Origin: Burkholderia sp. GAS332
GTDB taxonomy: Bacteria; Pseudomonadota; Gammaproteobacteria; Burkholderiales; Burkholderiaceae
Direction: 5' to 3'
Assembly (NCBI GenBank): GCA_900142905.1
Contig: FSRV01000002.1
Coordinates: 124,001-188,000 of the forward strand
Length of the DNA stretch: 64,000 nt
The notes under the pieces were generated by a model. The model had not been told where the DNA came from and did not search any database. It saw nothing but the letters and a program-made list of their open reading frames with translations. This document shows positions 23,399-40,933 of the stretch, piece by piece; position 1 is the first letter of the stretch; the number at the start of each line of letters is the position of its first letter. Position numbers and translations under genes: made by a program.

Positions 23399-23469
23399 TT
23401 TCAGTTCAGATCAGAGTAGGAATAACGGTAGCCATGCGCGTTTTGACGCGGCCTGTTGCGATCCCTGCC

Positions 23470-23898: not shown

Positions 23899-24250
23899 GA
23901 TGGCGTGTAGCGGGCCGGTGGCCGCACAAGAATTTAGGGAAGTCGTATTTTGGTGCGACTTGTCTCAGTCTTTTGCGACTGCGCCGGCAGATCCTTTGTT
24001 CTCGACATCGAAAACATTCGATATCAATCGTTCCTCGATTATGTACGCAACAACGCGCATGCTTGTCGACAAATCTGGGCGTCGCGTCGACTGATCGTTC
24101 ATGGCTGGGTCCAGCCTCATGCGATTGGCATACCTGCGTCGGCCTTGCACGGCCGCGATCGGCAGCGCGCCACCCAGTTCGGATAGACGCGATTCGCGGA
24201 ACCAGGCGTTGGGCCGGTGCTTGACTGCCGAGCAAACGCATTCGCTTTAG
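23899..24250. other. intergenic, nothing recognised
   Basis: 352 bases without a convincing gene on either strand. Short open frames here lack ribosome sites and family features. Confidence 0.4.
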
Positions 24251-24616
24251 CTAACTTGCGCCGTCGCCACGCTGCCATCGGATGTACGCGGCGGTACTCA
24301 TCGCATCGATGTTCGGCAGCTCGGCGACGCGAATGTGCTGAAAAAAACTCAAGCAGTGGCCCCAAGGGGATGTTTCTGGTGTGGATTCAATCCAGCACGA
24401 ATAGCCCAAGCGTTTCCAATCCAACGATCTGTCATCGTTGACGCGCCGAAGAAGCTCCTGTGCGATTACCTCGCACCAGATCAAGGCCTCTTCCGCCGAC
24501 CCTGCTTCGATAAATGCGCCAGTTGACGATGCGTAGTCTTCGATCAGTCCGCGCTCAAATAGCTCGCGGGGCTCAGGCTCGTGGTATTGGAAAATGATGA
24601 GATATTCGTGCGCCAT
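24251..24616 (-). CDS. uncharacterised 121-residue protein
   Basis: A soluble, acidic, Trp-containing protein (MAHEYLIIFQYHEPEPRELF; AEEALIWCEVIAQELLRRVN; SPWGHCLSFFQHIRVAELPN). No signal peptide, membrane segment or known motif. The size and composition recall immunity-type or cytoplasmic accessory proteins, but no toxin is adjacent. Codon use is consistent with a real gene. Function unknown. Confidence 0.6.
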   Translation of the reverse strand: MAHEYLIIFQYHEPEPRELFERGLIEDYASSTGAFIEAGSAEEALIWCEVIAQELLRRVNDDRSLDWKRLGYSCWIESTPETSPWGHCLSFFQHIRVAELPNIDAMSTAAYIRWQRGDGAS

Positions 24617-24725
24617 GCCGTAAGGGGAGGGTTGATGGTTTTCCCGGATGCAGTTTGTGCCAACGTCGTCGAGACCTGCTGACGATTGTCGATGATCTGC
24701 GCATCGGTGTCGAATTTCTGAAAGT

Positions 24726-24813
24726 GTTTGGGTTTATAAGACGCCTGCCCACATGTGCCTGTGGCGCTCGCCCATGCTCGTGGTTGAGGGCAGGCATCCT
24801 ACAAACCTAAACA
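24726..24813 (-). repeat. hairpin repeat element, copy C
   Basis: Minus-strand ends are GTTTAGGTTTGTAGGATGCC and GGCAGGCGTCTTATAAACCC. Over the 20 terminal pairs on the minus strand only one is unpaired and three are G-U; read on the plus strand three would be unpaired. That bias suggests the minus-strand RNA is the folded form. It starts 27 bases after the DUF6124-like gene, same orientation. The core (58 bases) matches copies A and B at both ends. Confidence 0.75.
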
Positions 24814-24839
24814 ACTGAAGCCGCTCGTCTTCTCGAGGG

Positions 24840-25310
24840 TTAGTGCCGCGCGGGAATCGGCTGTTGGGCAGCGTCTGTTTCTTCGCGCGTTGTGGCTTTC
24901 TCTGACGTTGATTTGCTCGGGCTGGCCTTCGTGGTTGTCGGCGTTTCCGTCGCTATCTGTGATGCCTCTGCTAGAAGGCGCGCAGCGCGGCTCGCAGTGA
25001 TGCGGCTTTGAGGGATGCCCTTCGCATCGAGCGCGATGACCTGGTATAGCTCACGGTCACACTCAAGCTCCTGCTGATATTGCTCCGCCGTGTCGACAAG
25101 CAATTCAAGCATCGTCTGTTGACGTCGTCTTTCCTCACTCGTGAGGGCAGGATTCCTACATATTGAGGACGCAAGTGTGACTAGCGTGTTGAGTTGGCTC
25201 AACTGCCGGTTGCATAGATCGAAGGTGGAAAGCGCTAGCTTTTCGTACTGGAGCGCGTCGACAGGCGGGCGTGAAGCGGGTTGAGATTGTTTTGTAGGTT
25301 TGCTGCTCAT
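24840..25310 (-). CDS. DUF6124/DUF3077-like small protein
   Basis: A 156-residue protein from the ATG at 25310, set by a strong ribosome site (AGGGAGGTCGCACC before ATG); the open extension to 25664 runs through a structured leader and is not coding. The sequence has an N-terminal Lys/Gln/Pro stretch, an alpha-helical core (YEKLALSTFDLCNRQLSQLN, TLVTLASSICRNPALTSEER), and a low-complexity Thr/Ser/Glu tail. The core resembles small proteins of pseudomonads and burkholderias annotated DUF6124/DUF3077, function unknown. It is preceded by an inverted-repeat leader and followed by repeat copy C. Confidence 0.65.
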   Translation of the reverse strand: MSSKPTKQSQPASRPPVDALQYEKLALSTFDLCNRQLSQLNTLVTLASSICRNPALTSEERRRQQTMLELLVDTAEQYQQELECDRELYQVIALDAKGIPQSRITASRAARLLAEASQIATETPTTTKASPSKSTSEKATTREETDAAQQPIPARH

Positions 25311-25380
25311 GGTGCGACCTCCCTGATACATCTCGGATCGCCCGACACTCGTTTGGGTAGGGGTGAGCGGGCACGTAGAA

Positions 25381-25524
25381 GGGTTAGCAGACCGGGATTT
25401 CACCAAAACCGGCGAGCCTTGCGGCTCCCCCCCTACGACCCGCCCATTGAAATATAGACGTGCAGGGATAGACGCACGACCCGCCTGAGCGGGTGTGCGG
25501 GTGAAATCGCAGGCTGCTAAACCC
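25381..25524 (-). promoter_or_regulatory. structured leader with long inverted repeat upstream of the DUF6124-like gene
   Basis: GGGTTAGCAG...ATTTCACC (25381-25404) is inverted-repeated by GGTGAAATC...CTGCTAAACCC (25500-25524), with 20 or so of about 24 positions complementary. The 95 bases between hold further hairpins: GAGCC-TTGC-GGCTC and CCCGC-CTGA-GCGGG. Just outside lies CATCGGG-TGTTT-CCCGATG. The gene's ribosome site is about 60 bases downstream of the folded unit. This suggests a structured 5' leader RNA or a small RNA; the rest of 25311-25672 shows no gene. Confidence 0.55.
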
Positions 25525-25672
25525 GGCCATCGGGTGTTTCCCGATGACTTGGTGATTATAAAGCAGGGAGAGGGGGAGCGATCAACTGAGCGAGCTAAAT
25601 GGTCGCGTTTGGCCGATTGGATAAGGCATGGATTGACCGGCAGGTCGACCGTAACCGCCGGCATTAGATGGT

Positions 25673-26125
25673 CTATTGGTAGTCGAGCGTGTCATCGACT
25701 TTGGTGATTTTCCAGCCGTCGCCTTGCTTGCGCAGAAACACCAACACGCTGATCTTGTCTTTCGAGCCGAACGTCACTGGAACAACCGCAACATCGCCGA
25801 GCATGATCGCCTGGTGTGTTGCGATGTTGTTAGACCAGTCCTGTTCGTCGTAGTCCTGCACCTTCGTGAAATAGTCGCTGTCGCCAGGCAGCCTGTTATG
25901 GCGGTAAGCGCTCCGAAGTCCGTCGACCGTCCCCTTGGTCACGTAGACATAAATGCCCTTGTCCAACAACGGATAGGTATCTTTAGATTCCAACTTGATA
26001 TACCAGGTGTAAAACGCTTTCGTGCTTGCGTCAGGAGTCGCGGTGTCCGCGAACGCCCCTTGCTGGAAAAGCAATCCGCCAACCAGCAGCAGTACCGACA
26101 CGGCGAGGGTCAATAGCTTCTTCAT
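25673..26125 (-). CDS. periplasmic DUF3828-type protein, probable immunity protein
   Basis: A 150-residue protein with a signal peptide (MKKLLTLAVSVLLLVGGLLF, cleavage after AFA). The mature domain (STKAFYTWYIKLESKDTYPL, DSDYFTKVQDYDEQDWSNNI, GWKITKVDDTLDY) has the NTF2-like pattern of DUF3828, found in immunity proteins of peptidoglycan-amidase effectors. It begins 8 bases after the stop of the amidase-like gene at 26134. Its periplasmic address is where a wall-degrading effector would have to be neutralised. Confidence 0.75.
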   Translation of the reverse strand: MKKLLTLAVSVLLLVGGLLFQQGAFADTATPDASTKAFYTWYIKLESKDTYPLLDKGIYVYVTKGTVDGLRSAYRHNRLPGDSDYFTKVQDYDEQDWSNNIATHQAIMLGDVAVVPVTFGSKDKISVLVFLRKQGDGWKITKVDDTLDYQ

Positions 26126-26133
26126 CTTTCGTC

Positions 26134-26508
26134 TCAGTTGTATCGATAAATTTTGTATGCCGGCTGCGATTGTCGATAAGACGCACCCGGATAGAAGCCT
26201 TGCGAGCCAGGGTGCGTTTGCTTGAAATCAGATACCCATATTGAGCCGTCAAAGATCGCCATGTGCCCTGCAGGATTTCCCGGGGCTGGCTGTATCACGA
26301 TCACATCGCCTGTGTGCGGATCGCCGATCGCTTGACGAAAGCCGACCGCCTCAAGTAGTGGGCCGTAGTCTTTGGCATAGTGTGCGTGGTGCAAGGAGAT
26401 TCCTCCCGATTCGATCGCCCTGCGCACGTACTTTGCACAGTTGCCAGTGCTGTGTGATTCCGCATGGTTATCCGCATAGGTCGCTGCGGAAGATTTATCG
26501 AACGGCAT
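26134..26508 (-). CDS. NlpC/P60- or CHAP-like amidase, probable T6SS effector
   Basis: A 124-residue protein with no signal peptide. The papain-like amidase signature is clear: Cys24 at the start of a helix (HSTGNCAKYVRRAIESGG) and His82 in PAGHMAIFDG, with the GDVIVIQP strand between. This is the fold used by small T6SS amidase effectors (Tae type) and phage CHAP endolysins. The lack of a signal peptide and the exported DUF3828 partner 8 bases downstream argue for delivery by a type VI system. A phage-derived hydrolase is the alternative. A VgrG gene lies 33 kb away in this window. Confidence 0.78.
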   Translation of the reverse strand: MPFDKSSAATYADNHAESHSTGNCAKYVRRAIESGGISLHHAHYAKDYGPLLEAVGFRQAIGDPHTGDVIVIQPAPGNPAGHMAIFDGSIWVSDFKQTHPGSQGFYPGASYRQSQPAYKIYRYN

Positions 26509-26846
26509 TTTTATCTCCCTTAAAGATTTAGTTGGCGCTCGCGCTGGAACGCTAACACATGGGATTCGTCGTTGTTGTTAAATTCGGGCTAGAGAGGCAA
26601 TGTTATGCCATTTGCATTGCGCCTCGGACTGTTAATGGCCGGCGTCGCCGAGGGGGTTCGTTATCAGCTTCAGAAGCCGCGAAGTTTCAGTGAATCCGGT
26701 GTGAGACCGACGACGGGCAAACGCTACAAGGTGCATGTTTGTCCAAGTCAGAGGGTTGCCACTACTCGTAGGCAATGGTCGATGAAGGGCGGTGCGGGCC
26801 GCTTAGTCCGCGGCCGGTCATCGGTCTTATGGAAAGCTTCACATAA

Positions 26847-27228
26847 GGCCGATTATGCATAGTTCGCAATTATGGAAACAACTCGACCATCCGCTGCGGA
26901 AAATCTGCGTCTCGGGTGGGTTCCATGGCGTTCATGCTTGAGCGCGCTTGACATAATTTCCGCTTCGCCTGAACCGTGTGGTTTCGTCGACGTGACGTTC
27001 CGAGGGCTTCGAGTTAAGGCTCGTATCACCAGGCCCCTCAGAAAAGGGCACATCCTTGTGCATCCGCGCAAACCTCGGGGGCTTGATCGTACGCTTCGAT
27101 TGCCGCCCCCATCGCGATCAACAGCGCGATTATGCGAAGCACGCAAACCGTGTCGTGCAGGCCGTTTCAGCAGATCGATCGTTTTTCCCAGACCGCTTTG
27201 CATAATCACGAGCTTTGCATAATCGGCC
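26847..27228. mobile_element. MITE-like element, 382 bp, with 28-bp terminal inverted repeats
   Basis: The left end 26847-26874 and the reverse complement of the right end 27201-27228 agree at 24 of 28 positions, both beginning GGCCGATTATGCA and ending ATTATG. An internal copy of the motif CGATTATGCNAAGCNCG lies at 27128-27144. No transposase frame was recognised inside. Such ends with repeated subterminal motifs suggest a non-autonomous transposon or a remnant of a recombinase-mobilised element. The rest of the gap 26509-27442 holds no gene that can be supported. Confidence 0.6.
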
Positions 27229-27442
27229 TGAGCCGACATTGAGGTGACGACGTCAGTTAGGGGCCTACAGGTCGCTTTCCTGCCGTTAGCACGCCGATGG
27301 CCGCGAATGTCGGGGCTCTCTGTCCGCGAAGCGTGCTCCCGCCCCTGAGCGGTCGTCGCGATTCCTGCAAACCGGACGACCGTTAACAAGATGCAACAGC
27401 CATTCAACTACCGTACCCTTCGACCAGGGAGTTACTGTTAAT

Positions 27443-28171
27443 TTATTCGAGTCTACCGAGATCCGCCAGTCGATTGTAGAATTCTTTCAGGTCCTTCCTG
27501 GTGGATATGCTGCGCTTTAGGATAATGATGGTTCCATTTTCTCGAAGAGTAGCGGATTTCAAGTGGGCTGGCACATCTTGGTTCGAAACCAAATAGGCCC
27601 AATGGAAACCACCAAAGATAAAGCTATACACGATTTGACCGAGTGCCCGCTGACGAATTGGTTGGAAAATTTCGTCCAATACCAAGCCAGATTCGTGCTG
27701 GATTGCGAACATGAAACAGGCGTAACGATCCGGTGAGCTAGGGTCGCCGTTAATGAGTAACGTACGTAGCCGCTCCTCATGCGGACCGAGCATAATATGC
27801 TCAAAGAACTGCAGCTTCGAGACTCCAGCCCGCCATATGATGGAGAGCTGAAAGAGCCTGAATTTTCTATAGTCCACGCCCTCCATATAGATGAGACTGC
27901 CTTGGCCAGTAATAGTAAGAGGTAATTCCCCTCGAATGAATTGGCGTGCATAACCTTCCCATATAGAAAATCTTTGCTCGCAGGCATTACACAGCAGCCG
28001 CTCCTTTAGCCCTTTTTGTTTAAGCACGTTAGGCAGGTCTGGATCTGCGGATAAAATTTGTAGCCGGTGTTTCTGGTCGTAAAGCGGTTCGTACAAAAAC
28101 TCAGGAAAAATATGGGATTCCTGAAGCTGTACGTCTCTGAGGCAAAGTGCGCAGCGACACATATATCTCAA
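27443..28171 (-). CDS. HNH-like zinc-binding protein, unknown function
   Basis: A 242-residue protein. The N-terminus has two zinc-finger pairs, CALC at about residues 7-10 and CNAC at about 61-64, with SHIFPEFLYEPLYD between them. This is the arrangement of HNH-endonuclease-like treble clefs (CxxC ... SHIxP ... CxxC). The remaining 170 residues are alpha/beta without a recognised domain. AT-rich codon use sets it apart from the 40-60 kb genes and suggests transfer. Proteins of this type are frequent in defence islands, but nuclease activity is not shown: no clear catalytic His-Asn-His set was seen. Confidence 0.65.
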   Translation of the reverse strand: MRYMCRCALCLRDVQLQESHIFPEFLYEPLYDQKHRLQILSADPDLPNVLKQKGLKERLLCNACEQRFSIWEGYARQFIRGELPLTITGQGSLIYMEGVDYRKFRLFQLSIIWRAGVSKLQFFEHIMLGPHEERLRTLLINGDPSSPDRYACFMFAIQHESGLVLDEIFQPIRQRALGQIVYSFIFGGFHWAYLVSNQDVPAHLKSATLRENGTIIILKRSISTRKDLKEFYNRLADLGRLE

Positions 28172-28750
28172 AAATTAAGTAACAGGTAAGTTCGACAGCA
28201 TATGGCTGACGATACGGCAAAGCAAGAGGTTCGACAAACGTCTGTTGCGTAAGAGAAGCTGTCGTTTGCTCGTCCTTATGAACACTAGACCGAATGACAG
28301 CAACTGGCCAGTTGCACCCGCTCACCTATCGTGCAAAAAAGCTGTCGTTGGAGCAGGACGAACGTTTGCGAACCACGGCTTACGGTGAGCGAGGCTGAAC
28401 GTGTACAGTCGGCCACGAACAGCCATTCGCTAGTGCAAAAAATCGAAGCTTCGGCTGTCAGCTAAGCGTCAATTAGCAGCCATTTCGTTAGCGACGGTTG
28501 AACGTTGCTTCGCCAGCTCTCAGGTCTTTTGACATTCAGCGCGTTTGAGGGACGGCAAATATTCGCACCCTCTGGATTGATGCAGTCTGTCGGGTCTGAT
28601 GTTGGATGGTTACCAGACGGTCTGTGCCACTGGTCGCCCAAATTGCCCCCAAATTGCTAAGGTTATGTCTGCGCGAGGTAGCGGTTCGGTTTGCCTCGTC
28701 GATCAATACAACTTACTTCAATGCCGTTCGACCGTTATGGGGCACTCAAT
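28172..28750. other. intergenic with perfect 16-bp palindrome
   Basis: No gene supported. Contains the perfect palindrome GCAACTGGCCAGTTGC at 28300-28315. AT content rises toward the gene at 28751. Function unknown; it could be an operator shared by the divergent genes at 27443 and 28751. Confidence 0.4.
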
Positions 28751-29473
28751 ATGGAGAATTCTTTGCTATCCGGCCATTCGTCCGATTGGTGGAACAGCGC
28801 CATGCTTCTGTCTCTTGCTTTGGCAGCTTTTGTCGCGCTTCTTGTTGCGGGAGCAACAACCGGAGCAGTTATGTCAGCAAGGCGCGAAGCGGCTGCAGCA
28901 CAGCACGATTTAGAACGATATAAGTCAACTGTTGCTGGGCAAGTCGCCGATGCAAAAAAAGCAGGAATCGAAGCTGGCGAGAAAGCGGGTAATGCTGACC
29001 TAAAGGCCGCCCAGGCAAATGAAAGAGCGGCTGCTTTTGAAAAAGAAGCGCAAGAACTGAAAGCATCCAACCTGGCATTGGAAGTACAAATACAGCCTCG
29101 ACGTCTTAGTGGGGAGAATTCAAAGAAACTGGCAGAAGTTCTATCTAAAATGGGATCGTTCCCTATCGGGATCGTATCAAGAATATTTGACCCGGAAGGA
29201 TCAGATTTTGCGGATGACTTGGATAGCGCATTCGGTGCCGCGAAGTGGCATCCGGTTAGACAGCGCGATTGGACGATGTCCAATCGGGGCGTTGCCATTG
29301 CCGCTTTCGAAGGCACAACTCTTCCTCCGGACTTCACAAATGCTCTTATCTCGGCACTTGCCGGGGCCGGCATCAAAGCAACAGTGATCACGATCAGTAA
29401 AGACAACCAAAACACAACGTCCGCGCATTTCCAACCTAACGAGCTATATCTCCTTGTGGGAGCGAAACCATAA
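28751..29473 (+). CDS. membrane-anchored coiled-coil protein
   Basis: A 240-residue protein from the ATG at 28751 (MENSLLSGHSSDWWNSAMLL). One transmembrane helix (SLALAAFVALLVAGATTGAV) is followed by about 80 residues of Ala/Lys/Glu-rich coiled coil (DAKKAGIEAGEKAGNADLKA, AQANERAAAFEKEAQELKAS). The globular C-terminal domain of about 110 residues (KLAEVLSKMGSFPIGIVSRI; AGIKATVITISKDNQ; NELYLLVGAKP) resembles receptor-like or small-molecule-binding domains found after coiled coils in accessory genes. No family recognised. The DUF2971 gene follows after 218 bases. Confidence 0.7.
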   Translation: MENSLLSGHSSDWWNSAMLLSLALAAFVALLVAGATTGAVMSARREAAAAQHDLERYKSTVAGQVADAKKAGIEAGEKAGNADLKAAQANERAAAFEKEAQELKASNLALEVQIQPRRLSGENSKKLAEVLSKMGSFPIGIVSRIFDPEGSDFADDLDSAFGAAKWHPVRQRDWTMSNRGVAIAAFEGTTLPPDFTNALISALAGAGIKATVITISKDNQNTTSAHFQPNELYLLVGAKP

Positions 29474-29690
29474 AGAAGTGCGGTCCATGTGGAGGAAAGC
29501 GTCCTTCCGCACCCGTTTCAGTTTGCCAATTGTGTTAGCCAAGCGACCTGCACAACTCGCGCGATTTCCAAGGGGGCGGTCAGAGCCCATCAGAAAAAGA
29601 AGGCGAGCGCCCGGATCACTAGGAGTGACCTCTCGCGGTGCTACCATGGATCGGAAGCTAACCGCCGTCGATGCTGAGAAAGGTGGATCA

Positions 29691-30572
29691 ATGAAACAGA
29701 GATATCGGCATAAGAACAGACCGAAAGCAATGAAACAGGCACATCACATAACGTACAAACCGGAATATCTATACAAGTACACGCCTCTGCGTGCACCGCC
29801 AGATAAGCCAGGAAGACAACAGCAACTTGATGCGCTACTTACAACACCGCAACTGTGGCTGGCTGCGCCTTCGTCATTTAATGACCCCATGGATTGCAAG
29901 CCGGGATTTCGATTCAGCGGTGGAACTCCAGAGGCACGCGAAAAATTCCGTCGGGTCACGATTATCCGCATGGTCAAACGCGATCATCCGCAGGCGAAAG
30001 GCGATGAATTAATAAGTTTGGTAGCGGACTATTCGCGAAAGCGGCAAGACATTGATTCTCGTTTCGAAGAAGAGGCTGATCTGGCACTTTCAGCGGCGCT
30101 ACAAAGTATTGGTGTCTTGTGCCTGTCTGAACGTCACCGCGATCCCGTCATGTTCTATCACTACGGCGACAGGCATTCTGGCATGTGTCTGAAGTTCAGA
30201 ATTGGCGATTTCCTTGCTGGTGTCGAGCGAGTGAAGTACGGCGAAAATTATCCCGTGGTTGAATTTTTTGACGACTTGGACCATGAAGAACAGTTCGAAA
30301 AAATATTTCTGACGAAGTACAAAAGCTGGGAATACGAACATGAGTGGCGATACGTCGCAGCCAACCTTGATCTGGAGAACCCGCAGCGTCTCCGCGATTA
30401 CCCGGCTGAGCTACTGAGCGGTGTAACCTTTGGCTACAAGATGCCTCAAGACGATCGAGACTACGCCGTCGATCTATTGTGCAAACGCGGTTCGAAAGTG
30501 GAACTGTTTGAAGCCAAACTGGATCGCAACCACTACCTGCTGGACATCGTGCCTTACGAGCCCGGAAAATAA
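29691..30572 (+). CDS. DUF2971-family protein
   Basis: A 293-residue protein from the ATG at 29691, preceded by GAGAAAGGTGG; the frame is open to 29454 but the earlier part is basic, low-complexity and overlaps the preceding gene. The family pattern is clear: LYKYTPL, LWLAAPSSFNDPMDCKPGFR, VLCLSERHRDPVMFYHYGDR, HSGMCLKFRIG and KYKSWEYEHEWRYV. DUF2971 proteins are cytoplasmic, of unknown activity, and common in variable islands. A second in-frame ATG at 29730 is possible. Confidence 0.82.
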   Translation: MKQRYRHKNRPKAMKQAHHITYKPEYLYKYTPLRAPPDKPGRQQQLDALLTTPQLWLAAPSSFNDPMDCKPGFRFSGGTPEAREKFRRVTIIRMVKRDHPQAKGDELISLVADYSRKRQDIDSRFEEEADLALSAALQSIGVLCLSERHRDPVMFYHYGDRHSGMCLKFRIGDFLAGVERVKYGENYPVVEFFDDLDHEEQFEKIFLTKYKSWEYEHEWRYVAANLDLENPQRLRDYPAELLSGVTFGYKMPQDDRDYAVDLLCKRGSKVELFEAKLDRNHYLLDIVPYEPGK

Positions 30573-30926
30573 CCCGCTGCTTCGAGCCCTTCACCGTGTG
30601 GACGCGTCCTCTTTCGCGAGTTCGGCGCCAAACACGCGATCGAGGTTCGCCAGCAATCCCGCAATTTGCCGAAGCGGCGGGGAAGTCCCTTGCGAGCGCA
30701 ACCGCTCGTCCCGGAAAATCCCACTTGTTTGACTTTCTCGCTTCAGCCGGAACCGGCCATCTGCGGACCTCCATCACGGCCTCACACGGACGTTCGAGCG
30801 TCAGCTACGCTCCGCGACAGCAGACTGTCGTCCAACCTCATCACTGGCGCGTCATTCGGCCGAAGCAGGGCCTTCGCAGCGAAAAGACGGATGTCGATTA
30901 TTCAGCGATAATCAATTCGTCGTATC
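30573..30926. other. intergenic between DUF2971 gene and retron, nothing recognised
   Basis: Convergent gene ends. No gene is supported on either strand. A short hairpin by the retron end is listed separately. Confidence 0.4.
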
Positions 30927-30944
30927 TCGATAGTAATCTATCGA
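30927..30944 (-). terminator. hairpin after the retron RT gene
   Basis: TCGATAG-TAAT-CTATCGA, a perfect 7-bp stem beginning 4 bases beyond the RT stop codon (30949). AT-rich and without a long T-run, so at best a weak terminator. Confidence 0.35.
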
Positions 30945-30948
30945 ATCG

Positions 30949-32697
30949 TTAGGGCTTCGCAAGCTTGGCCTGATAGTCGTCTGTCACTTTTATTATTCTA
31001 TCCAAGATGGCCTTAAATCCACTGAAATCGATAGTCCCTGCTTTTTTTGCCACGATGTCCCGAGCGAAATGCCCTTTTCCGTAGAAGCCAGGCTTGTCAT
31101 CAGTCTTGTTGCTTCGGTCAAATTTTCTGCCATTAAGCTCCTCTTTCAACGTCGCATCATCGAAAAAATCTTCAATCGCGGTCTCCCCATTGTTGGGCCC
31201 GCGCGGCGTTGGAACAACGTATAAATTGCCCGTGACATGTATAAAATCGGCTAGTCCCTGAGGCTTTTTCTTTTTAGTAATTCCCGCAATCGCTTCATAG
31301 ACGCTATGCGCGCCCTTGTCATTGTCTATTAAGACAATCACAGGGAAGCGCGGTGCAGGAGCCTTAAAACTATGTTGCACATCTGCATGATAGTGTTTTA
31401 GGAGCTTGCATATTCCCCCGACGCCACCAGTGAGCTCTGTGATTTCCCCAGTACGCGTCTCAGCATACTTATAAAAGCGAACTTTTAACTTTGACGGCGC
31501 ACCTGACTCAACCAAGCTTGGATACATGGCTGATAATGCTTTTATTGCACAACGTAGATACACGTTATCGGTCTTACCTTCGCAAACGATGATAGGCTCA
31601 CGGAGACCGTAGAACAGGTCAAAATACAAAAAGCGTCTGAACAACTCCACTCGACCGGCGGTGCTCTCAAATTCACGACCGTTGTCTATGGCTAACTTGT
31701 GATTGAATCGGTCCACATGGTCGATGTAGGAGAGCATGCCAAGCAGTTGCTTGTTCTCTCCCGCCTTGCGATTTTCCAGAATGATGGTCCCGTTGGCGTC
31801 TCTCTTCTTGTAGACGAATTCAAATGCTCCCGTTGTAAAGAGGCTGTGCGCCATCGCACGTACGGTGTATCGATAGGTCGCAGGCACATTTACTTTCTGA
31901 TTGACCGTAAGACCAGTCACCTCTTGTCGTGAATCACGATATTGCAACCGCGTTTTGGACGGATTGAACGCAAACCCGCTTCTGCTAACCAACCGGTCAA
32001 GCTCTGCTCCCGGAACCCACGTATGGTCGCCGCCAAGGGTTGCTATCTCAGGAGGGAACGTCGGATTGTTCGTGCTGAATGTGAGGTCATCGGCATATCT
32101 CGTATAACTCGCGCTGTGCTTTGCCGCCAAGCTGGAAAGCTGGATATCCATCGGATGGGCGAGGAGGTTAGAGATTACCGGCGAGCATGGGCTACCCTGT
32201 GGTAGCTTGTTCTCGAAGCACGCTATCTGAGCAATGACCGTGGCAACGTCGGGGTGCAAAGCAAAGTTGCGGTCTTTGATAAAAAATCCGCGTACACGTC
32301 CGAAGTTAATCGTGCCAAAGAAATCGTGTAAATCTGCGTTGAAGACAAACCGACGAGTGACATGTACTCGTCCATTCGTCATGATTGTGTGATGCCTCTT
32401 GAATCCGTGAGCAATTCCGTGCCGCCGTCCATTTCCAGGCTTAACGTGGGATAGGGCGATTTCGTCACTGCAGTCTTGCAGAACAGATGCTAGCTTTTGC
32501 TGAACGAGTTTAAGCCCTAAAGATGGAGCCAAAATTTCTCGTTGTCCGCCATGCCGTTTGGGAATGCCGAAGCGCGTATATTTGGTAGCTGGTGCGGTCT
32601 TATACAGAATGTACGCGAGATTTCGTGGCGAGACATCCAGAATAATAGCGAGGTCACGCCGAGCAGTAGCAGCCTTAAGCTTTTGAAGACTTGACAT
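30949..32697 (-). CDS. retron reverse transcriptase fused to TOPRIM domain (Ec67/Eco2 type)
   Basis: A 582-residue protein from the ATG at 32697 (MSSLQKLKAATARRDLAIIL); the frame is open to 33114 only by chance, because the retron ncRNA lies there. Residues 1-320 are a retron RT: LHDFFGTINFGRVRGFF (first catalytic Asp region), LPQGSPCSPVISNL, the active site YTRYADDLTFS and the retron hallmark EVTGLTVN. The second half is an OLD-like TOPRIM nuclease fold: IIVCEGKTDNVYL supplies the catalytic Glu, VIVLIDNDKGAHSV the Asp-x-Asp, and TAIEDFFDD a further acidic cluster. Length, order and motifs match the E. coli Ec67 protein (about 586 residues) throughout, as recalled. Ec67 retrons protect against phage: msDNA-RT senses infection and the TOPRIM part acts as the toxic effector. 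Confidence 0.95.
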   Translation of the reverse strand: MSSLQKLKAATARRDLAIILDVSPRNLAYILYKTAPATKYTRFGIPKRHGGQREILAPSLGLKLVQQKLASVLQDCSDEIALSHVKPGNGRRHGIAHGFKRHHTIMTNGRVHVTRRFVFNADLHDFFGTINFGRVRGFFIKDRNFALHPDVATVIAQIACFENKLPQGSPCSPVISNLLAHPMDIQLSSLAAKHSASYTRYADDLTFSTNNPTFPPEIATLGGDHTWVPGAELDRLVSRSGFAFNPSKTRLQYRDSRQEVTGLTVNQKVNVPATYRYTVRAMAHSLFTTGAFEFVYKKRDANGTIILENRKAGENKQLLGMLSYIDHVDRFNHKLAIDNGREFESTAGRVELFRRFLYFDLFYGLREPIIVCEGKTDNVYLRCAIKALSAMYPSLVESGAPSKLKVRFYKYAETRTGEITELTGGVGGICKLLKHYHADVQHSFKAPAPRFPVIVLIDNDKGAHSVYEAIAGITKKKKPQGLADFIHVTGNLYVVPTPRGPNNGETAIEDFFDDATLKEELNGRKFDRSNKTDDKPGFYGKGHFARDIVAKKAGTIDFSGFKAILDRIIKVTDDYQAKLAKP

Positions 32698-32713
32698 ATG
32701 TCTCAGAGGAAGT

Positions 32714-32835
32714 GGCCCGCGGATACTCTTACGCAAACGGCGCAATTCGGATAATGCAGAGGAAATCCGAGGAGCAAATCCCGGAACTTTTATTTCACAT
32801 GCCATGATGCATGGCAAAAAATCTATCCGCGAGCC
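32714..32835 (-). ncRNA. retron msr-msd RNA (predicted)
   Basis: On the minus strand GGCTCGCGGATA (a1, 32835-32824) and TATCCGCGGGCC (a2, 32725-32714) pair over all 12 positions with one G-U, enclosing 98 bases. Directly after a1 comes GATTTTTT, matching the position and sequence of the branching G in Ec67 (a1 then GATTTG). Next is the msr stem GCCATG-CAT-CATGGC (32815-32801). The msd part can form TCGGAT-12-ATCCGA (32747-32770). Predicted cDNA starts at 32726 and reads CTCTTACGCAAACGG. The RT start codon lies 17 bases beyond a2, as is usual for retrons. Cut sites and final msDNA length cannot be fixed from sequence. Confidence 0.8.
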
Positions 32836-32842
32836 GGGTGGG

Positions 32843-32871
32843 ACTGTAACAGGATGTTTCGCAGCAGACAA
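32843..32871 (-). promoter_or_regulatory. candidate sigma-70 promoter of the retron
   Basis: Minus strand: TTGTCT (32871-32866), 17 bases, TACAGT (32848-32843). Seven bases later is the first base of arm a1, so the predicted transcription start coincides with the 5' end of the ncRNA. Each box matches consensus at 4 of 6 positions. Confidence 0.5.
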
Positions 32872-33123
32872 TCTCTCGAAGTGACTTACTTCGCCGATTC
32901 GACACGGTTTGGCGCCAATTTTCAAGTCAGCGATTTCGATTCGCCAATGGCCGCTATCAGCGCGAAACGCATCATAGTCGGCGCAGGGGCGTGACCGGCA
33001 ACATCGGGTCGGTCTGAGCCACTCCGAGCGGGCCCGTCGGAATGAAGGGCGTGGCTCGGCTTCAGGATTCGTGCGGTCGTGCCGATAGAACAGACTGGCC
33101 GACAAGCAATTCACGGAGCTTCT

Positions 33124-33669
33124 GTGCCCAGAAACAGTGACAAGCCGAAACGCGCTTTCAGGATATTCAACGCTGACCAGGACGTATTGGACTTCAAGTT
33201 CTCATACAACGACCAGGAGACTGCCGAGCTTCACGCGCGGTTGAACGGATCCACGACGATCACTGAACACGATCTTCGTCGGGTGTCGCTATGGAAGTCG
33301 GACAGAGTGCTATGTGTGTCTGACGAGACTCTAGCCAATCTCAACGAACTCTCGACGGTTGAGGGTTTGACGCTGACGGACAACCGGGTCAAGGACGTGA
33401 TTGATGATCTCGTGCTTTCGCAGGGCATCGGTTTCCCAATGGCAAGCGCAATTCTGAAGTTCATCAAGCCGACCCTCTTCCCGATCATTGACGTGCGAGC
33501 GTATCGAGCGCTCACCGGTGTTCAACCGAGCTACTCGACCTATAGCTACGATAAATACATCAGCTATGCGGAGAAAGTGACCGACGTTGCCAGGAAGCTG
33601 AATCGGCCACTTCGCGAGATCGATGAACAGTTGTATTGCTACGACAAGCAGCACAACGGCAAGATTTGA
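33124..33669 (+). CDS. HhH-like protein, unknown function
   Basis: A 181-residue protein; the start chosen is the GTG at 33124 (GTG CCC AGA AAC) with CGGAG upstream. The middle (LSQGIGFPMASAILKFIKPT, LFPIIDVRAYRALTGVQPS) has the helix-hairpin-helix plus catalytic-Asp arrangement seen in HhH-GPD DNA glycosylases (G-x-G...A...D-x-R-x-x-R-A-L). No iron-sulfur Cys are present. It is divergent from the retron with about 290 bases to the ncRNA, and may be a DNA-lesion or defence-related protein; activity is not established. Confidence 0.65.
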   Translation: MPRNSDKPKRAFRIFNADQDVLDFKFSYNDQETAELHARLNGSTTITEHDLRRVSLWKSDRVLCVSDETLANLNELSTVEGLTLTDNRVKDVIDDLVLSQGIGFPMASAILKFIKPTLFPIIDVRAYRALTGVQPSYSTYSYDKYISYAEKVTDVARKLNRPLREIDEQLYCYDKQHNGKI

Positions 33670-34045
33670 ACCGCGTCTAGATGGCGGTTCGCTGGTCAAC
33701 ACCGTGGACGAGAGCCATGAGCGCGGGCTGGAGATCCGTGCCGCCGAGGGAAACCGCGTTGGTCGGGGCCTGCCATGGCCTCCAGTTTCTCACGACCTGT
33801 TTGACAAGCTTTGGCAGGCCGCAGCGGGTCGCAAGCACGAATCCGATTGCGGTGAGACCTGTCATTCGCATCCGCCGACATGCAAATGACCGGAAAGTGA
33901 TCCGTGGCCGCCTGACGAACGCCGGTACTCGAATGGCAGCTCAGGCCGACAACCTGCCGACGGTCGAGCTCTAGCGGATCATTGGTAGAACCTGCGTGCC
34001 ACCGATCACCGGCAGGCAAAGACCCTGACGGTGAGGCTCGAAAGT
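33670..34045. other. intergenic, nothing recognised
   Basis: 376 bases between the HhH-like gene and the end of mcrC. Overlapping frames on both strands are open but show no family features or ribosome sites. Confidence 0.4.
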
Positions 34046-35341
34046 CTAAAGAGCCACGGGTACTTCAGAGTCCACCGTAAACCAATTCAGACCATGCAAT
34101 TTCGCTGCATTCAGGTCAAACGGCAACACTTGAAGATGCAACCCTGTCGAAAAGGCGAATGGTTTAAGCATTGTCATAAACCGCTTGGTACACGGATAGA
34201 CTAAAATCAGTTTGCCGGCGCTGCCCATATAGTTTTGCCCGTATGCATAGAGCTGGTAGAAGTCAGCTTGACTGAGCCCGTAATTGTTGATGCGGTCAGC
34301 TCCGTCAAGCAGCTTCCACTTGGCGTCGAAGATCATCGCAACATTTGGCCCCTCAATCAAAAAGTCGGGCTTGAGCCTGAAGATGCCAGCATTGTCGTGC
34401 TCGCAGAGCCAGTGGCGCGAAGCCTGCTCGGTCAGCCTGTAGCCGGCTGGCAGGCTTGCGCGCAAGGCGTGACCTACGTAACGTTCAAAGAGTTTCTCCA
34501 TCGGAAACAGCAAGCTGATACCCCGCGCCTCCCCGGTCAGCGCCAGCGGTATCTGATGGTCGAGTACCATTTGGCACCAGGGTTTGGCCCGCAGGTAATG
34601 TGTCATCAGGCGGTCCGTGCGCCACGCTCGGAAGTCGGTCTGTATGTTCTGACTAGCCGGCACCTCGTTAAGGATGTGTAGCAGTTCGTTGGCGAGGCGC
34701 CAGTTATCGGGATCCCGGGAGCCTTTGCTCACGCGTTGCAATCCGGACTTGAGCAGACGGTTCTCGGCACGGTCTATCGAGAACACGTCGTGGCGAATAT
34801 TGAAAAGGTCTGCGCGCGCAGGTGATGTGCGTATCTGCTTTGTCAGATCCAACTGGCCGCGCAAATACCGCTGTTCTTCTTCAACGCGAAGATAGTCACG
34901 CCTCATACCGCGCTTGACCACATACTCCAGAGTCTGCAGGAACCGTCGTATTACCCACTCGGTTAGCGGATGATCAAACTGCTGAAGCGCTGCCTCGTTA
35001 CCTTCGCGCGGCGTCAGTTCCATTGCAACTTCAAGCATGCGGCGCAGTAAGGCCCGGGCTTCTTTCACAGTTTGGCCATCGGCGCGGTCCACGTGTTTAG
35101 GCAGGATCTCTAGGCGCAGCCCGTTAGGCGACTCAAGGACACCAACGTAGTTGTCCAGGCGGAGCCACCGTCGGCTTTCGATATGCAGGACCTGCGCACC
35201 TGCTTGGCCTCTCATGCACGCTGAGACCTCGCACAGCCATTCAAAGTCCGCGTTCGTTACCTGCGCCTGATCTAACGTCGCAGGCACCGCGCTGGTCGTC
35301 AAGCGAGCGAATTCACGGACGGTCAGCGTACGAGAGCTCAT
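34046..35341 (-). CDS. mcrC: McrC nuclease subunit of McrBC modification-dependent restriction system
   Basis: A 431-residue protein. The N-terminal half carries the LEILPKHVDRADGQTVKEAR motif shared by McrC proteins and binds the McrB ring. The C-terminal half is a PD-(D/E)XK nuclease: RLKPDFLIEGPNVAMIFDAK gives the Asp and the Asp-Ala-Lys catalytic set, followed by QADFYQLYAYGQNY. It cuts DNA near modified cytosines when McrB loads and translocates. It overlaps mcrB by 4 bases (ATGA), so the two are translationally coupled. Confidence 0.92.
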   Translation of the reverse strand: MSSRTLTVREFARLTTSAVPATLDQAQVTNADFEWLCEVSACMRGQAGAQVLHIESRRWLRLDNYVGVLESPNGLRLEILPKHVDRADGQTVKEARALLRRMLEVAMELTPREGNEAALQQFDHPLTEWVIRRFLQTLEYVVKRGMRRDYLRVEEEQRYLRGQLDLTKQIRTSPARADLFNIRHDVFSIDRAENRLLKSGLQRVSKGSRDPDNWRLANELLHILNEVPASQNIQTDFRAWRTDRLMTHYLRAKPWCQMVLDHQIPLALTGEARGISLLFPMEKLFERYVGHALRASLPAGYRLTEQASRHWLCEHDNAGIFRLKPDFLIEGPNVAMIFDAKWKLLDGADRINNYGLSQADFYQLYAYGQNYMGSAGKLILVYPCTKRFMTMLKPFAFSTGLHLQVLPFDLNAAKLHGLNWFTVDSEVPVAL

Positions 35342-37407
35342 GCTTCGACGGCCAGGATGCCCGCGTAGCTCTCAACCTTTGAGAAGGCTTTGTCGTTCAC
35401 CTCCCAGCGTTTATCGCGCAGCATACCTGCCTGTTCTGCGCCAAAGAGCTGCGCTAGTGGTGCGCCACGCTGCCGGACGAAGCACAAATCGTCCGGTTTT
35501 CGGTGATCGTTCAACACCCAAACTATCCGCTCCCAGTCCTCGAAAAAATATTCCTGGAGCAGTGGCAGCACCTGATTCTTGAAGATTCCGGCCAGCGTCT
35601 CCATCGTGTTGCCGCCTTCCATTGCTAGTGGCATGAAGTACGCGTGGCCCAGCAAGTGGTCACGGTCAAGCAACAACTCAATGCGCTCATTCATTATCGC
35701 CAGCATCTGGCCAATGTTGACGCCGGCCACATCGACTTCATTCAGAAGATCTGGCCGAGGCGGCATCTCCTTGAAACAGAAGCGCCGACGCAATGCGATA
35801 TCCAAGCCTGCCAGCGAGCGGTCTGCAGTGTTCATCGTGCCAAGCAGATGCACATTGCCAGGCACAGTGAACGGTTCTTGGGAATACGGCAACGTGACCG
35901 TCAACGCTTCCAGATTGCCGGATCGCTTGCTAGACTCGATCAGTGTGATCAACTCGCCGAAGATGCGCGATACATTGCCCCGGTTGATCTCGTCAACGAT
36001 TAACACGAATGGCGTAGCCTTGGCCTCAGGGAGCTGCGATGCAGGTGCCAGCAAGGCGTCGAGTTTTGTCATGTTGATGGAGCCGTCGCGCAGCTGATAA
36101 AGGGTCATCTGGCTGAACCGGTTGTTCATCAATTCGCCGAATCCCAGCGACGGGTCATAGGACCGCAACCAACGCACAGGACGGCTTTGCCTGTAATGGT
36201 CGCCAGTCTCGCGTTCAATGTGGAGATAAGGCCCCGTGATCTCGCCAATCGCCCGAAACTTCAGATTCCCGTCCGTGACAACGATCAGGTCGCCCGTCTT
36301 CATGACGTTTATAAACGTATTTACCGCAGTTGCCGCATAATCGTTGGCGTCGGATTGTCGTCCATGCTCACGCATCCTGACAGACACGTCGGTGCGCGAA
36401 TTGCAGCCGGTGTAGTCGAGCGCATAACCGTAGCCCAATAGCGCCACCGCTTGCTTCATGCAGTCATCGTAGACATATGCATCAACGCCGTCAGCTGCAC
36501 CTAGCGACATCTTCCAAATCTTCCGCCCGGAGAGCTTGATGGGCATCCCTGCCTCTGAGGACGAGCTGGTTGCGGTTGGCACGGATGCACGATTACACAG
36601 TTCTTTGAAAACGCCATCAACGACCTGATAGCTGAGTTGTCCGTCGTCACTAGTTACAGCACGTATTCCCTCGACGAAATCCTCGTAGCTGAAGCTCTGG
36701 TGAAAGGTGACGAAGCGGACGCGCCCGGCTTGGGCCAGTTCATCGAACCTTGTTTTCAATGTCGAACGCCTGTTTAAACGCTCGGCCGCGGATTCTTCGG
36801 GCCGCTCTGGATACCGCAACAGCAAATTCGGATCTAGGATTCGTAGCGCTTCGTCAATGGTGGCGTAAGTCTTGCCCGTTCCCGGTGGGCCATAAAGGAT
36901 AGTGTTCAGCGCACTGGAATTCGGGAGCGCACTGCGCGGCGTTCGCTCAATCGGATCGGACTCGTCCGGGTCGACGGTGGGAGGCGCTGAGGCGCCATAG
37001 TCCGAAGGCCGGTAGCCTTCTCCAATCAGATCGTTCGCGTGGGGCGTGATCTGCAGGTCGCACTCGTCCAACCAGCGGGCGACGGCGCGCAAATCAGGGT
37101 GCGACATGGGCGACATCACCGGTCGGTCCTCCACCCCTTTGCAGAGCCATTTGGCCAGCACACAGGCGGGCCGCCCGCCCACAATATGGATTCGAAAGCT
37201 GACACGCCACGCTGAGTGACCGAGCTTGCGCCGCCCGAAACGCAGGTCTGTATATTTGTAGTTTGGCCCTCCCGTCGTCCACTGATCGGTCTCGGGGTAG
37301 CGCTTGCGTATGCTTTCAATTACCTGCCAGGTCCACTCACGATCCGCATCCGATTTAAATGAACCCAAAAGGTCCTCGCCATCCTTGTTCAGGTAGTTGT
37401 CGAGCAA
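35338..37407 (-). CDS. mcrB: McrB AAA+ motor of McrBC, with an inserted EVE-like domain
   Basis: About 689 residues. The start chosen is the TTG at 37407, 6 bases after GGGGAGG; a TTG at 37422 overlaps that site. Residues 1-130 are a separate N-terminal domain. The AAA+ module shows Walker A LYGPPGTGKTYATIDEAL (about residue 173), FVTFHQSFSYEDFVEGI, Walker B VLIVDEINRGNVSRIFGELI and the McrB signature GTMNTADRSLAGLDIALRRRF. Between HQSFSYEDF and Walker B sits an insertion of about 160 residues (KIWKMSLGAADGV ... GDLIVVTDG ... AIGEITGPYLHIE) resembling EVE/PUA-like domains that read modified bases. It powers translocation with GTP or ATP for McrC. Confidence 0.92.
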   Translation of the reverse strand: MLDNYLNKDGEDLLGSFKSDADREWTWQVIESIRKRYPETDQWTTGGPNYKYTDLRFGRRKLGHSAWRVSFRIHIVGGRPACVLAKWLCKGVEDRPVMSPMSHPDLRAVARWLDECDLQITPHANDLIGEGYRPSDYGASAPPTVDPDESDPIERTPRSALPNSSALNTILYGPPGTGKTYATIDEALRILDPNLLLRYPERPEESAAERLNRRSTLKTRFDELAQAGRVRFVTFHQSFSYEDFVEGIRAVTSDDGQLSYQVVDGVFKELCNRASVPTATSSSSEAGMPIKLSGRKIWKMSLGAADGVDAYVYDDCMKQAVALLGYGYALDYTGCNSRTDVSVRMREHGRQSDANDYAATAVNTFINVMKTGDLIVVTDGNLKFRAIGEITGPYLHIERETGDHYRQSRPVRWLRSYDPSLGFGELMNNRFSQMTLYQLRDGSINMTKLDALLAPASQLPEAKATPFVLIVDEINRGNVSRIFGELITLIESSKRSGNLEALTVTLPYSQEPFTVPGNVHLLGTMNTADRSLAGLDIALRRRFCFKEMPPRPDLLNEVDVAGVNIGQMLAIMNERIELLLDRDHLLGHAYFMPLAMEGGNTMETLAGIFKNQVLPLLQEYFFEDWERIVWVLNDHRKPDDLCFVRQRGAPLAQLFGAEQAGMLRDKRWEVNDKAFSKVESYAGILAVEA

Positions 37408-37422
37408 TTCTCGCCTCCCCAA

Positions 37423-38076
37423 TGGAAACCTGCTTCCCCGTTACGCAGCAAATCATAGCGCTTGACTTAGCGTTCACGTAACGCTTGTTTGAGAAAGCAT
37501 ACTTGCGATGGCCAGTGGTCGCTCACACATACCACGGGTGCCACGACTCGAATGACGACTTTGGGTTGCGAATTCAATCGGCGGAAACATACGACTTTCT
37601 CCATAGAAGTCGTTCGCGACAACGTTCAGCCAGCTCCGACGAACGTTGGCTTCGGGCGATAAACCGTCTGTCGCTTCGCTTCAGTGCTCGGTAGGTCATC
37701 GGTCGTAGCGGTTGCTCAATCAATGAGTGTCCGGATAGGTCGTCTCCCGGCTTGTCCTTTGTTCGTACGCTAGAGCCCGCCGCACCTAAGGGACAAAGGA
37801 AGATCGATTTGGCAGCTTCATTCCGACCGAAGAGTCAATCAAAGGGGCAAGTGCGGCTGCGACGTTCTACATGGTTCAGGAATTTCTGATGCAAATTAAT
37901 TCAGTCCGCATAGATACCTCTTCTTTTCGGTGTCACGCGTGGACGTTTTGCTAAGCATCAGGAACGGGCTTACGTCTAGCGCTCCTAGGGCGATAAAAAT
38001 ATCCGCGTTCTGCGACAATGTTCGTGCTACGGGAACGTAGAGAAAAACTTATTTTCATTAAACGATCGGAGACCTC
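37423..38076. other. intergenic, no gene; one inverted repeat
   Basis: About 650 bases upstream of mcrB. Holds CAACGTTC (37620-37627) and its inverted copy GAACGTTG (37641-37648). No coding frame is supported. Confidence 0.4.
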
Positions 38077-38304
38077 ATGGAACGCTACAAAAATCTTGGT
38101 GGAGACTCGAACGTGGTCGCCTACGAAGTTGAACAAGGGTCTATTACAGTTCAATTTGGTGATGGTTCGGTTTATCTCTATTCAACGCAAAGTACAAGTG
38201 TAGAAAACATTGCTCAAATGCAACGTTTGGCAAACGTTGGTCAGGGCTTAAATAGCTTTATTGGACGTGTTGTTAAGAAGGGATATGCCCGGAAACTTCG
38301 CTAA
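38077..38304 (+). CDS. KTSC-domain-like small protein
   Basis: A 75-residue protein (MERYKNLGGDSNVVAYEVEQ, ITVQFGDGSVYLYS, GLNSFIGRVVKKGYARKL). The order of an SN-V-Y start, an 'I.V.F..G..Y.Y' strand pair, and a C-terminal 'G..LN.FI' helix matches the KTSC domain, a small module often tied to lysyl-tRNA synthetase or phage genes. ATG with GGAGA upstream. Cytoplasmic; role unknown. Confidence 0.7.
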   Translation: MERYKNLGGDSNVVAYEVEQGSITVQFGDGSVYLYSTQSTSVENIAQMQRLANVGQGLNSFIGRVVKKGYARKLR

Positions 38305-38370
38305 ATCCTCGTCCCTAGAAGTTAAACAACCTCAACGGATCGAAAGTCCGCGCTTACGAAATCTCGGAGC

Positions 38371-38411
38371 AGACGTTCACGATCGACTGCTAACAAGACA
38401 TGTGAACGTCT
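38371..38411. repeat. 10-bp perfect inverted repeat
   Basis: AGACGTTCAC (38371-38380) and GTGAACGTCT (38402-38411) separated by 21 bases, downstream of the KTSC-like gene. Could be a weak terminator or a binding site. Confidence 0.5.
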
Positions 38412-38614
38412 ATCAAGTCTAACCAACCGCCTGTCACTTCTCTTTGAAGGGCGGGTCTGCGGGGCGGATTCAGCCGGTGGATGCAATACACTAAAGACTG
38501 TGCAAGCAGTGGGAGTGTTGCAGATGAAACAGCGACGCCGCCATATATTGAATCGCGTGCCCCTTTAGGCCGGCCAACCTTCGAATCAAGCCGCGATGCG
38601 ACCATCAACGACTC

Positions 38615-38637
38615 GCTGACCAATTCAATTGGTCAGC
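38615..38637. repeat. 23-bp palindrome in gene-poor stretch
   Basis: GCTGACCAATT, one centre base, AATTGGTCAGC: an exact dyad with 11-base arms. It sits in the 38305-39025 gap, where no gene is supported on either strand. It has the form of a strong protein-binding dyad, but nothing nearby shows what it would control. Confidence 0.5.
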
Positions 38638-39025
38638 CGATTGTCGGAAGCCTAGGCACATAGGCATCGGCCAAAACATGACGAGGGACTGAATTCGAAC
38701 CCGCATGCCAAGCTAGGGGGCGAAGACACGAAATGTCGGTTGTCTGAGCAACGAGCGTAGTGAAAAGGTAACTCCGACTGCGGCAGCGCAGATAAGGCGC
38801 AGATTAATGGCGCTTCGGCTGAGACATTGCAACGGTTGACTTGCCCTCATCGCATGCCGATTGCTCGGTACATCATTGGCAAGTGCAAATCGGTTGACGA
38901 ATCCATGTCGAGGCCAAGAGTTAGTCAAATATCTGGGCCAAACCTAAATCAACCGATGCATCTGTTCTCGCAAAGATGCCTAACTGGCCTTGGACAAGGG
39001 GTCCCGGTGCCCCGGAGAAGCCTGA

Positions 39026-39051
39026 GTGCGGCAGGGTAGGACCTACCGCAC
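39026..39051 (-). terminator. hairpin after the ABC permease operon
   Basis: GTGCGG...CCGCAC with an inner GGTAG-GTC-CTACC (minus strand), beginning 12 bases past the permease stop. No T-run, so only a candidate terminator. Confidence 0.4.
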
Positions 39052-39063
39052 ATGGCACAACCT

Positions 39064-39915
39064 CTACTTCACCGCCCCCAACGCCAACCCCTTCACCAAG
39101 AACCGCTGCAACCAAGCAAACACAATCGAAACCGGCAACGTTGCGCAGAGGGTAGCGGCCATCACCAGATGCCACTCGACGACGTACTTCCCGGCGACCA
39201 TGTCAGTCACTTGAACGGTCAGAGTCTTATTCTCCGGCGACCGAATCAACGTATAGACGACCGCAAACTCATTCCACGCATTGATGAAGGTGAAAATCGC
39301 CGTCACAACAATCGCAGGCACAGCCAGCGGCAAGAACACCTTAAAAACAGCCCTCGTCCTCCCACACCCCTCCAGCCAAGCCGCCTCTTCCAGATCCCGC
39401 GGCACCGTCTGAAAGTAAGAAGACAACATCCAAACCGCAAACGCGATATTAAAAGCCGCATAAGAAACGATGACCCCAATCTTGGAGTCAACCAGATTCC
39501 CATCACCATAAGGAATCATCGCTGCGAGCCGGAACAAACCAACAACCAGCAAGATCGGCGACAACATCTGCGTCACCAGCAGAAACTGCGAATACAACCC
39601 TTTCCCACGAAACGGAAACCTAGCCAACGCATAAGCCGCCGGCAAGCTCACCGCCAACGCCAACGCCGTCGACAGAAAGCTGATCACACAACTATTCCTC
39701 AGCGCGACCCCGAAATTCGCCGCAACCCACATATCCGAAAAATTGCTCCACTGCCAATGCACTGGCAACCACCGTGCCGGATAAACAAAGATCTCCGTAG
39801 CCGGCTTCAAAGCAGTAAACAACATCACAGCAAACGGAAACAGCACCGCCACAATAAGAGGCGACAACGCCAACCAACACCACAACGAGCGCTTCATCTT
39901 GACGCTAAGACTCAT
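39064..39915 (-). CDS. carbohydrate ABC transporter permease (MalG type)
   Basis: A 283-residue inner-membrane protein with about six transmembrane segments. The ATPase-coupling EAA loop is EEAAWLEGCGRTRAVFKVFL. It forms the transmembrane pore with the MalF-type permease just upstream, which it overlaps by 4 bases. The arrangement belongs to the CUT1 family for sugars, glycerol-phosphate or oligosaccharides. Confidence 0.92.
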   Translation of the reverse strand: MSLSVKMKRSLWCWLALSPLIVAVLFPFAVMLFTALKPATEIFVYPARWLPVHWQWSNFSDMWVAANFGVALRNSCVISFLSTALALAVSLPAAYALARFPFRGKGLYSQFLLVTQMLSPILLVVGLFRLAAMIPYGDGNLVDSKIGVIVSYAAFNIAFAVWMLSSYFQTVPRDLEEAAWLEGCGRTRAVFKVFLPLAVPAIVVTAIFTFINAWNEFAVVYTLIRSPENKTLTVQVTDMVAGKYVVEWHLVMAATLCATLPVSIVFAWLQRFLVKGLALGAVK

Positions 39916-40802: not shown

Positions 40803-40899
40803 GCGTGCTCGATCGTAAGACGCGTCCACATTAAAAGAAAGCGGGCGCGACGGGATGGGCCGGATACTGCATTACGTGCGTAACGGGTAAGACGACCGA

Positions 40900-40933
40900 A
40901 ACGCGCGCTGCCTTCGCAGCGGCGGCGCGCGTT
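40900..40933 (-). promoter_or_regulatory. intercistronic hairpin between binding protein and permeases
   Basis: AACGCGCGC (40900-40908) and GCGCGCGTT (40925-40933) form a perfect 9-bp GC stem 34 bases after the binding-protein stop. Hairpins at this place protect or terminate the abundant binding-protein message, as in malE-malF. Confidence 0.55.

Follow-up and report, generated by a model that had tools for sequence, protein, structure and literature searches.

The 64,000-nucleotide stretch of Burkholderia sp. GAS332 DNA analyzed here (contig FSRV01000002.1, positions 124,001 to 188,000; "the window", whose numbering is used throughout) carries a complete retron of type I-C, the Ec67/Eco2 family, at 30806-32875 on the minus strand. 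It consists of a gene for a reverse transcriptase (RT) fused to a TOPRIM effector, and of an upstream noncoding RNA (ncRNA), msr-msd, with its own promoter. The original prediction had described the locus as a complete Ec67-type retron. It is correct in all main respects, with three details revised below (the msDNA start, the promoter and the msd stem), and we hold with high confidence that the retron is intact, because the protein matches the family models and has a structurally solved relative in Eco2, the arms of the RNA covary, and the -10 element is conserved. The retron is an ordinary member of a known antiphage system, and the locus itself adds a complete retron to type I-C.

The protein scores 712 bits against the NCBIfam model NF038237, for which the cutoff is 450, and matches the PADLOC model PDLC02966 with an expectation value (E) of 8.5e-221. 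The protein-coding features are as follows.

30949..32697, minus strand: RT-TOPRIM fusion gene, retron Ec67 family, 582 amino acids, ATG at 32697 and stop at 30949
30952..31596, minus strand: C-terminal TOPRIM effector part, approximately residues 368-582, by alignment to Eco2

As predicted from the sequence, the open reading frame joins an RT (RVT_1 in Pfam) with YADD at residues 201-204 and VTG at residues 260-262 to a TOPRIM part that aligns with that of Eco2. The alignment with the Ec67 RT, which had been proposed as a check on the TOPRIM acids, showed that all five are kept: E373, D377, D458, D460 and E509 correspond to Eco2 E374, D378, D460, D462 and E515. In a 107-row protein alignment (98 distinct sequences, the window protein included twice), the positions of Eco2 E374, D378, D460 and E515 are invariant in 107/107 rows, and that of D462 is aspartate in 96 and glutamate in 11.

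The RNA elements upstream of the gene are as follows.

32824..32835, minus strand: a1 arm, GGCTCGCGGATA, covarying with a2
32823, minus strand: putative branching G, equivalent to rG15 in the Eco2 numbering of PMC12405507; G in 85/85 model-aligned relatives
32800..32816, minus strand: msr stem-loop TGCCATG-CAT-CATGGCA, 7 bp with a CAU loop
32714..32725, minus strand: a2 arm, TATCCGCGGGCC, covarying with a1

The arms form 12 bp, one of them a G-U, and GATTTT follows directly 3' of a1. Folded as RNA, 32714-32835 gave z = -3.38, with 2 of 200 shuffled sequences equally stable. The relatives come from a tblastn search, of which 95 of 141 rows were kept and 46 dropped as redundant, low in score, late in start or short of upstream DNA. 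From these 95 loci, 18 were aligned over the 210 nt upstream of the RT with pairing disregarded (alignment A2). In this alignment the a1/a2 arms and the msr stem are paired in 99.4% of cells, and 15 of 19 pairs show two-sided changes, including 11 of the 12 arm pairs; sliding the partners by 1-3 columns lowers pairing to 27-41%. Four of five covariation measures were reached by 0/500 shuffles. The fifth, the number of further standard pair types, was 25 against 25.3 in shuffles, was reached by 361/500, and does not favor structure. In a second alignment, A6, which leans towards structure because it was fitted to structure, the number of two-sided pairs was reached by 9/500 shuffles. In each of 17 rows (one misaligned locus, L054, not counted) 11 or 12 of 12 positions are paired between the row's own arms, and arms swapped between species average 9.7. 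Thus the arms pair beyond chance, since they covary among relatives, and the predicted 12-bp arm pair, the GATTTT after a1 and the msr stem are all borne out.

A covariance model was built from 17 of the aligned relatives and searched against 85 sources that we chose, excluding 14 of the 17 seeds and redundant and low-scoring loci; 80 of the 85 are neither members of the model nor near-copies of members. Each source gave one match. In the 83 sources measured, the match lies on the RT strand, and relative to the aligned RT start its end ranges from 1 nt inside to 116 nt upstream; in the remaining two, Eco2 and an E. coli plasmid retron (L182), it also lies upstream of the RT. Eco2, which is outside the model, was recognized with E 2.7e-10, and the weakest source, L113, with E 0.0022. 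In the GAS332 genome itself, where 150 of 999 first-look candidates were scored, this locus is the sole match with E of 1 or lower. Rfam 15 gave no match at the window locus, whether gathering or permissive thresholds were applied. It has none at the Eco2 locus either, and its silence here is therefore uninformative. Judged by comparison among relatives, the msr-msd RNA is real. An RT-TOPRIM defense enzyme that works independently of retron RNA, with an incidental inverted repeat upstream, is so improbable that it can be practically dismissed: the msDNA (multicopy single-stranded DNA) of the window retron is so far a predicted one, which leaves this explanation some room, but the arms and msr stem covary and the model finds one match upstream of the RT in 85/85 of the chosen sources.

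The promoter had been predicted as a -35/-10 pair with transcription starting on a1.

32866..32871, minus strand: -35-like hexamer TTGTCT, 4/6 to consensus; the pair falls under the threshold of the consensus scan
32843..32851, minus strand: extended -10, TGTTACAGT, ending 7 nt before a1, supported by sequence and conservation

The hexamers are present as TTGTCT-17-TACAGT and match the consensus at 8/12 positions. A consensus promoter scan did not list the pair, and found 3 sites against 2.4 in shuffles. Of the upstream regions of relatives, 78/97 have a TANNNT whose end lies 4-12 nt before a1, and in six control windows shifted 15-40 nt upstream it occurs in 11-18/97. The extended form TGNTANNNT occupies the -10 site in 46/97. 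The promoter thus appears better supported as an extended -10 than through its -35: of the claim, the hexamers and a conserved -10 stood, and the -35 is weak. Because TANNNT is conserved at that distance, transcription likely starts on the first a1 base.

Several observations weigh against an intact retron that works as Eco2 does. Eco2 R184, which is said to touch the priming base, is replaced by Q186; Eco2 S513, among the residues whose change to alanine abolished activity (PMC12405507), is replaced by A507; and the trimer loop with Eco2 R332 is shortened. R332 falls opposite a gap in 93/107 rows, and opposite R341 in a seven-sequence alignment. The Pfam scan of the window RT-TOPRIM did not report a Toprim domain, the predicted structure model is middling (predicted local distance difference test 77.4, predicted template modeling score 0.51), and the predicted msDNA folds as DNA with z about -1, not better than shuffles. 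A decayed or silent retron that has lost its msDNA and its defense would accommodate the substituted R184 and S513, the shortened loop and the 8/12 promoter. It is nevertheless very unlikely. The frame is intact, the catalytic acids are invariant and the arms are still fully paired. The gene is under purifying selection, with a ratio of nonsynonymous to synonymous substitution (dN/dS) of 0.08-0.09 against Paraburkholderia fynbosensis and P. susongensis (dN about 0.02, dS about 0.26). Moreover the R184 and S513 positions vary across the family in the 107-row alignment, and these residues are therefore not general requirements. One discrepancy concerns Eco2 itself: residue 562 is aspartate in the Eco2 protein compared here and lysine according to PMC12405507.

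The ends of the msDNA can be predicted by projection from Eco2.

32727..32787, minus strand: predicted template for reverse transcription (61 nt), by projection of Eco2 dT1 and dC67, termini conserved in relatives
32777..32787, minus strand: retained RNA-DNA hybrid as predicted by projection from PMC12405507, corresponding to Eco2 rG52-rA62
32774..32775, minus strand: conserved msd GC just past the predicted hybrid, G in 72/85 and C in 72/85
32726..32728, minus strand: GAG before a2, last G (32726) predicted to be uncopied; GAG in 85/85 model-aligned relatives

The Eco2 ncRNA agrees with the positions published for it (branching G15, loop A30-A31-U32, U51, dT1 and last bases CTGCC), from which the copied part is 52-118 and the G beside a2 is uncopied. 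By homology the window msDNA would be 5'-TCTTACGC...GGAAC-3'. It probably starts TCTTACGC and not CTCTTACGC, so that the 5' end first proposed, CTCTTACGC, is probably one base too long. The earlier start is improbable; conservation is equal at the G beside a2 and at the A preceding it, but dT1 and the last five nucleotides of the Eco2 msDNA put the start opposite the A.

The same signals recur across the family. In the model-fitted alignment a G follows a1 in 85/85 and the stop-site base is G in 80/85; this stop-site base lies 13 nt past the last base of the msr stem in 75/85 and 12 nt past it in 8/85. The msd GC stands at the aligned columns in 68/85 and 12-13 nt from the stop G in 60/85. It lies just beyond the hybrid, since the hybrid retained in Eco2 is G52-A62. 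When arms were found without the GAG rule, GAG preceded a2 in 87/95 loci, and when they were found without either rule, 86/95 combined A|G after a1 with GAG before a2. Anchoring the stop-G distance on a simple hairpin search blurred it, the best column being G in 51/86. The type I-C msd ends thus look hard-wired through GAG, stop G and GC, possibly a new detail; nothing was found on conserved type I-C msd ends in the openly licensed literature, a weak negative given that scope. We tentatively suggest, at somewhat less than even odds, that short RNA signals set the msDNA ends in type I-C (start at the A of GAG, stop at the G, with the GC setting the hybrid end or being read by RT-TOPRIM) and leave the middle free. 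Loss of RNase H1 is reported to leave Eco2 unaffected and to cost four other retrons their sharp stop (PMC8989520). Fixed ends would account for the correct stop of Eco2 in the absence of RNase H1, in which it differs from several other retrons, and that result would be compatible with a stop signal built into type I-C.

The msd stem that had been predicted was not supported. Along with the weak DNA fold, an 85-sequence consensus fold contained, apart from a single isolated pair, no stem in the msd. A seven-sequence consensus fold had suggested a closing stem, CUCU/GGAG, and a small stem within the msd; both were rejected because their pairs hardly vary and vanish in the 85-sequence fold. Eco2 msDNA gave z -0.02 by the same folding test, and over 96 loci the mean z is -0.59, with 9 loci below -2. 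A retron of the same parts whose sensing logic is unlike that of Eco2, its msd middle being without a long hairpin and different in sequence from Eco2, is unlikely but deserves weight. Only the msd ends are conserved in the 85 relatives, the middle varying in sequence and in length (msd of 60-90 nt), and the consensus fold is without an msd stem. However, Eco2's own msDNA is equally weak in the folding test, and its msd, described as one long DNA hairpin, has a distal part that the cryo-electron microscopy structure does not resolve (both in PMC12405507).

We expect the window retron to follow Eco2-like logic. RNA polymerase would begin on or close to the first a1 base, transcribing msr-msd and then the RT-TOPRIM gene. 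The a1 and a2 arms would pair, and the RT domain would prime from the 2'-OH of G32823. Copying would start at A32727, leaving G32726 uncopied, and stop at G32787; the product would be a 61-nt msDNA joined 2'-5' to the msr RNA. The RT-TOPRIM of Eco2 is inactive in a 3:3 complex with its msDNA; once freed, the TOPRIM acts as an RNase, through which phage defense has been shown for Eco2, and escaper phages carry denB mutations (PMC12405507); activated TOPRIM is reported to cleave tRNA (PMC12956279). By analogy, msDNA and msr would keep the window RT-TOPRIM in an inactive complex, perhaps but not necessarily a trimer, since the R332 loop differs here. Phage infection would damage or change the msDNA, and the freed TOPRIM RNase would stop translation and phage growth. 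The priming and stop positions, the inhibition, the trigger, the RNase activity and phage defense by the GAS332 retron are thus all projected from Eco2.

The retron behaves as a cassette, since homology is limited to it and the flanks are unrelated.

30806..32875, minus strand: whole retron cassette, extending from immediately ahead of the -35 to 143 bp beyond the RT-TOPRIM stop; 92% identical by blastn to two Paraburkholderia genomes, flanks unmatched

The blastn homology to P. fynbosensis and P. susongensis covers exactly this span. Across 58 genomes of the genus, the own genome included, the region from about 26.7 to 39.0 kb within window 21500-41400 is unmatched among the matches listed, except that two genomes carry the related retron itself and a third matches over 332 bp. 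The best genomes match one or both sides of this gap, in the manner of a variable site lying upstream of an ABC transporter. Matches at E <= 1e-100 occur in 12/398 genomes of the family and 4/399 of the order, the own genome being counted in both.

The window has other features as well. A McrBC-type restriction pair stands beside the cassette at 34046-37422 on the minus strand (McrBC, PF10117, 330 bits, and an AAA protein). A DUF2971 protein that matches the PADLOC candidate PDC-S31 (E 4.8e-44) is encoded at 29454-30572 on the plus strand, 377 bp past the retron stop. A chloramphenicol phosphotransferase-like protein at 21140-21727, minus strand (PF07931, 123.5 bits), may equally be a general kinase. 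At 25359-25451 on the minus strand, 5.5 kb from the retron, is an immunity RNA of P4 type, the C4 antisense RNA (61.6 bits against a gathering threshold of 45); among the neighbors tested, none was recognized as a P4 gene. Integrase and phage structural genes were absent from the subset of neighboring open reading frames scanned, 18 proteins with Pfam and 10 with PHROGs.

The same genome has a second retron (L003, contig C1, 449-2430), in which an NDT_II-A effector (E 2.1e-83) is directly followed by RT_II-A (E 1.9e-120), an Eco1-like type II-A layout, and a third, retron-like RT (L002, contig C1, 658-2025; 455 aa; PADLOC RT_other/RT_outgroup, E 1.2e-147) for which no effector was identified. 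The Ec67-family retron of the E. coli plasmid (L182 3824-5740) has matches in 525 of 5,426 complete E. coli genomes; 512 cover at least 80% of the query, all of them chromosomal, and among the matches listed 3 of 5 rows span an IS1 insertion.

These results add an Ec67-type retron of a soil bacterium that is complete and strongly supported; nothing was found on retrons of this clade in the openly licensed literature, again a weak negative given that scope. The covariance model recognizes type I-C ncRNAs at loci that range from proteobacterial to Gram-positive, including the Eco2 locus at which Rfam 15 is silent. The main interest, a modest one, may be the family-wide rule for msDNA start and stop that the alignment suggests; it helps to predict msDNA ends and is useful for choosing retrons as DNA-writing tools.

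Among known systems, the closest are the Ec67-family proteins of P. fynbosensis, P. susongensis and P. terricola, 96% identical to the window protein; their ncRNAs differ from that of the window by a few base changes, some of them compensated. The RT-TIR (type XII) and RT-protease (type XI) retrons are related in the RT half and have different C-terminal effectors; their models score about 320 bits on the window protein, in the RT half only. The reference is Retron-Eco2 (Ec67) of E. coli, also type I-C. The two proteins are 40% identical, and R184, S513 and the R332 loop of Eco2 are not retained here. The msd is 61 nt here and 67 nt in Eco2, with a different sequence, and the apparent chromosomal island here contrasts with the P2-like prophage site described for Eco2 (PMC6868368). 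In common are the RT-TOPRIM fusion with YADD and the TOPRIM acids, the a1/a2 arms, the branching G within [CT]AGA, one msr stem-loop with a 3-nt loop, GAG before a2, and AA-N-G at the stop site. The window retron thus has, as had been proposed, its own ncRNA with an Eco2-like architecture.
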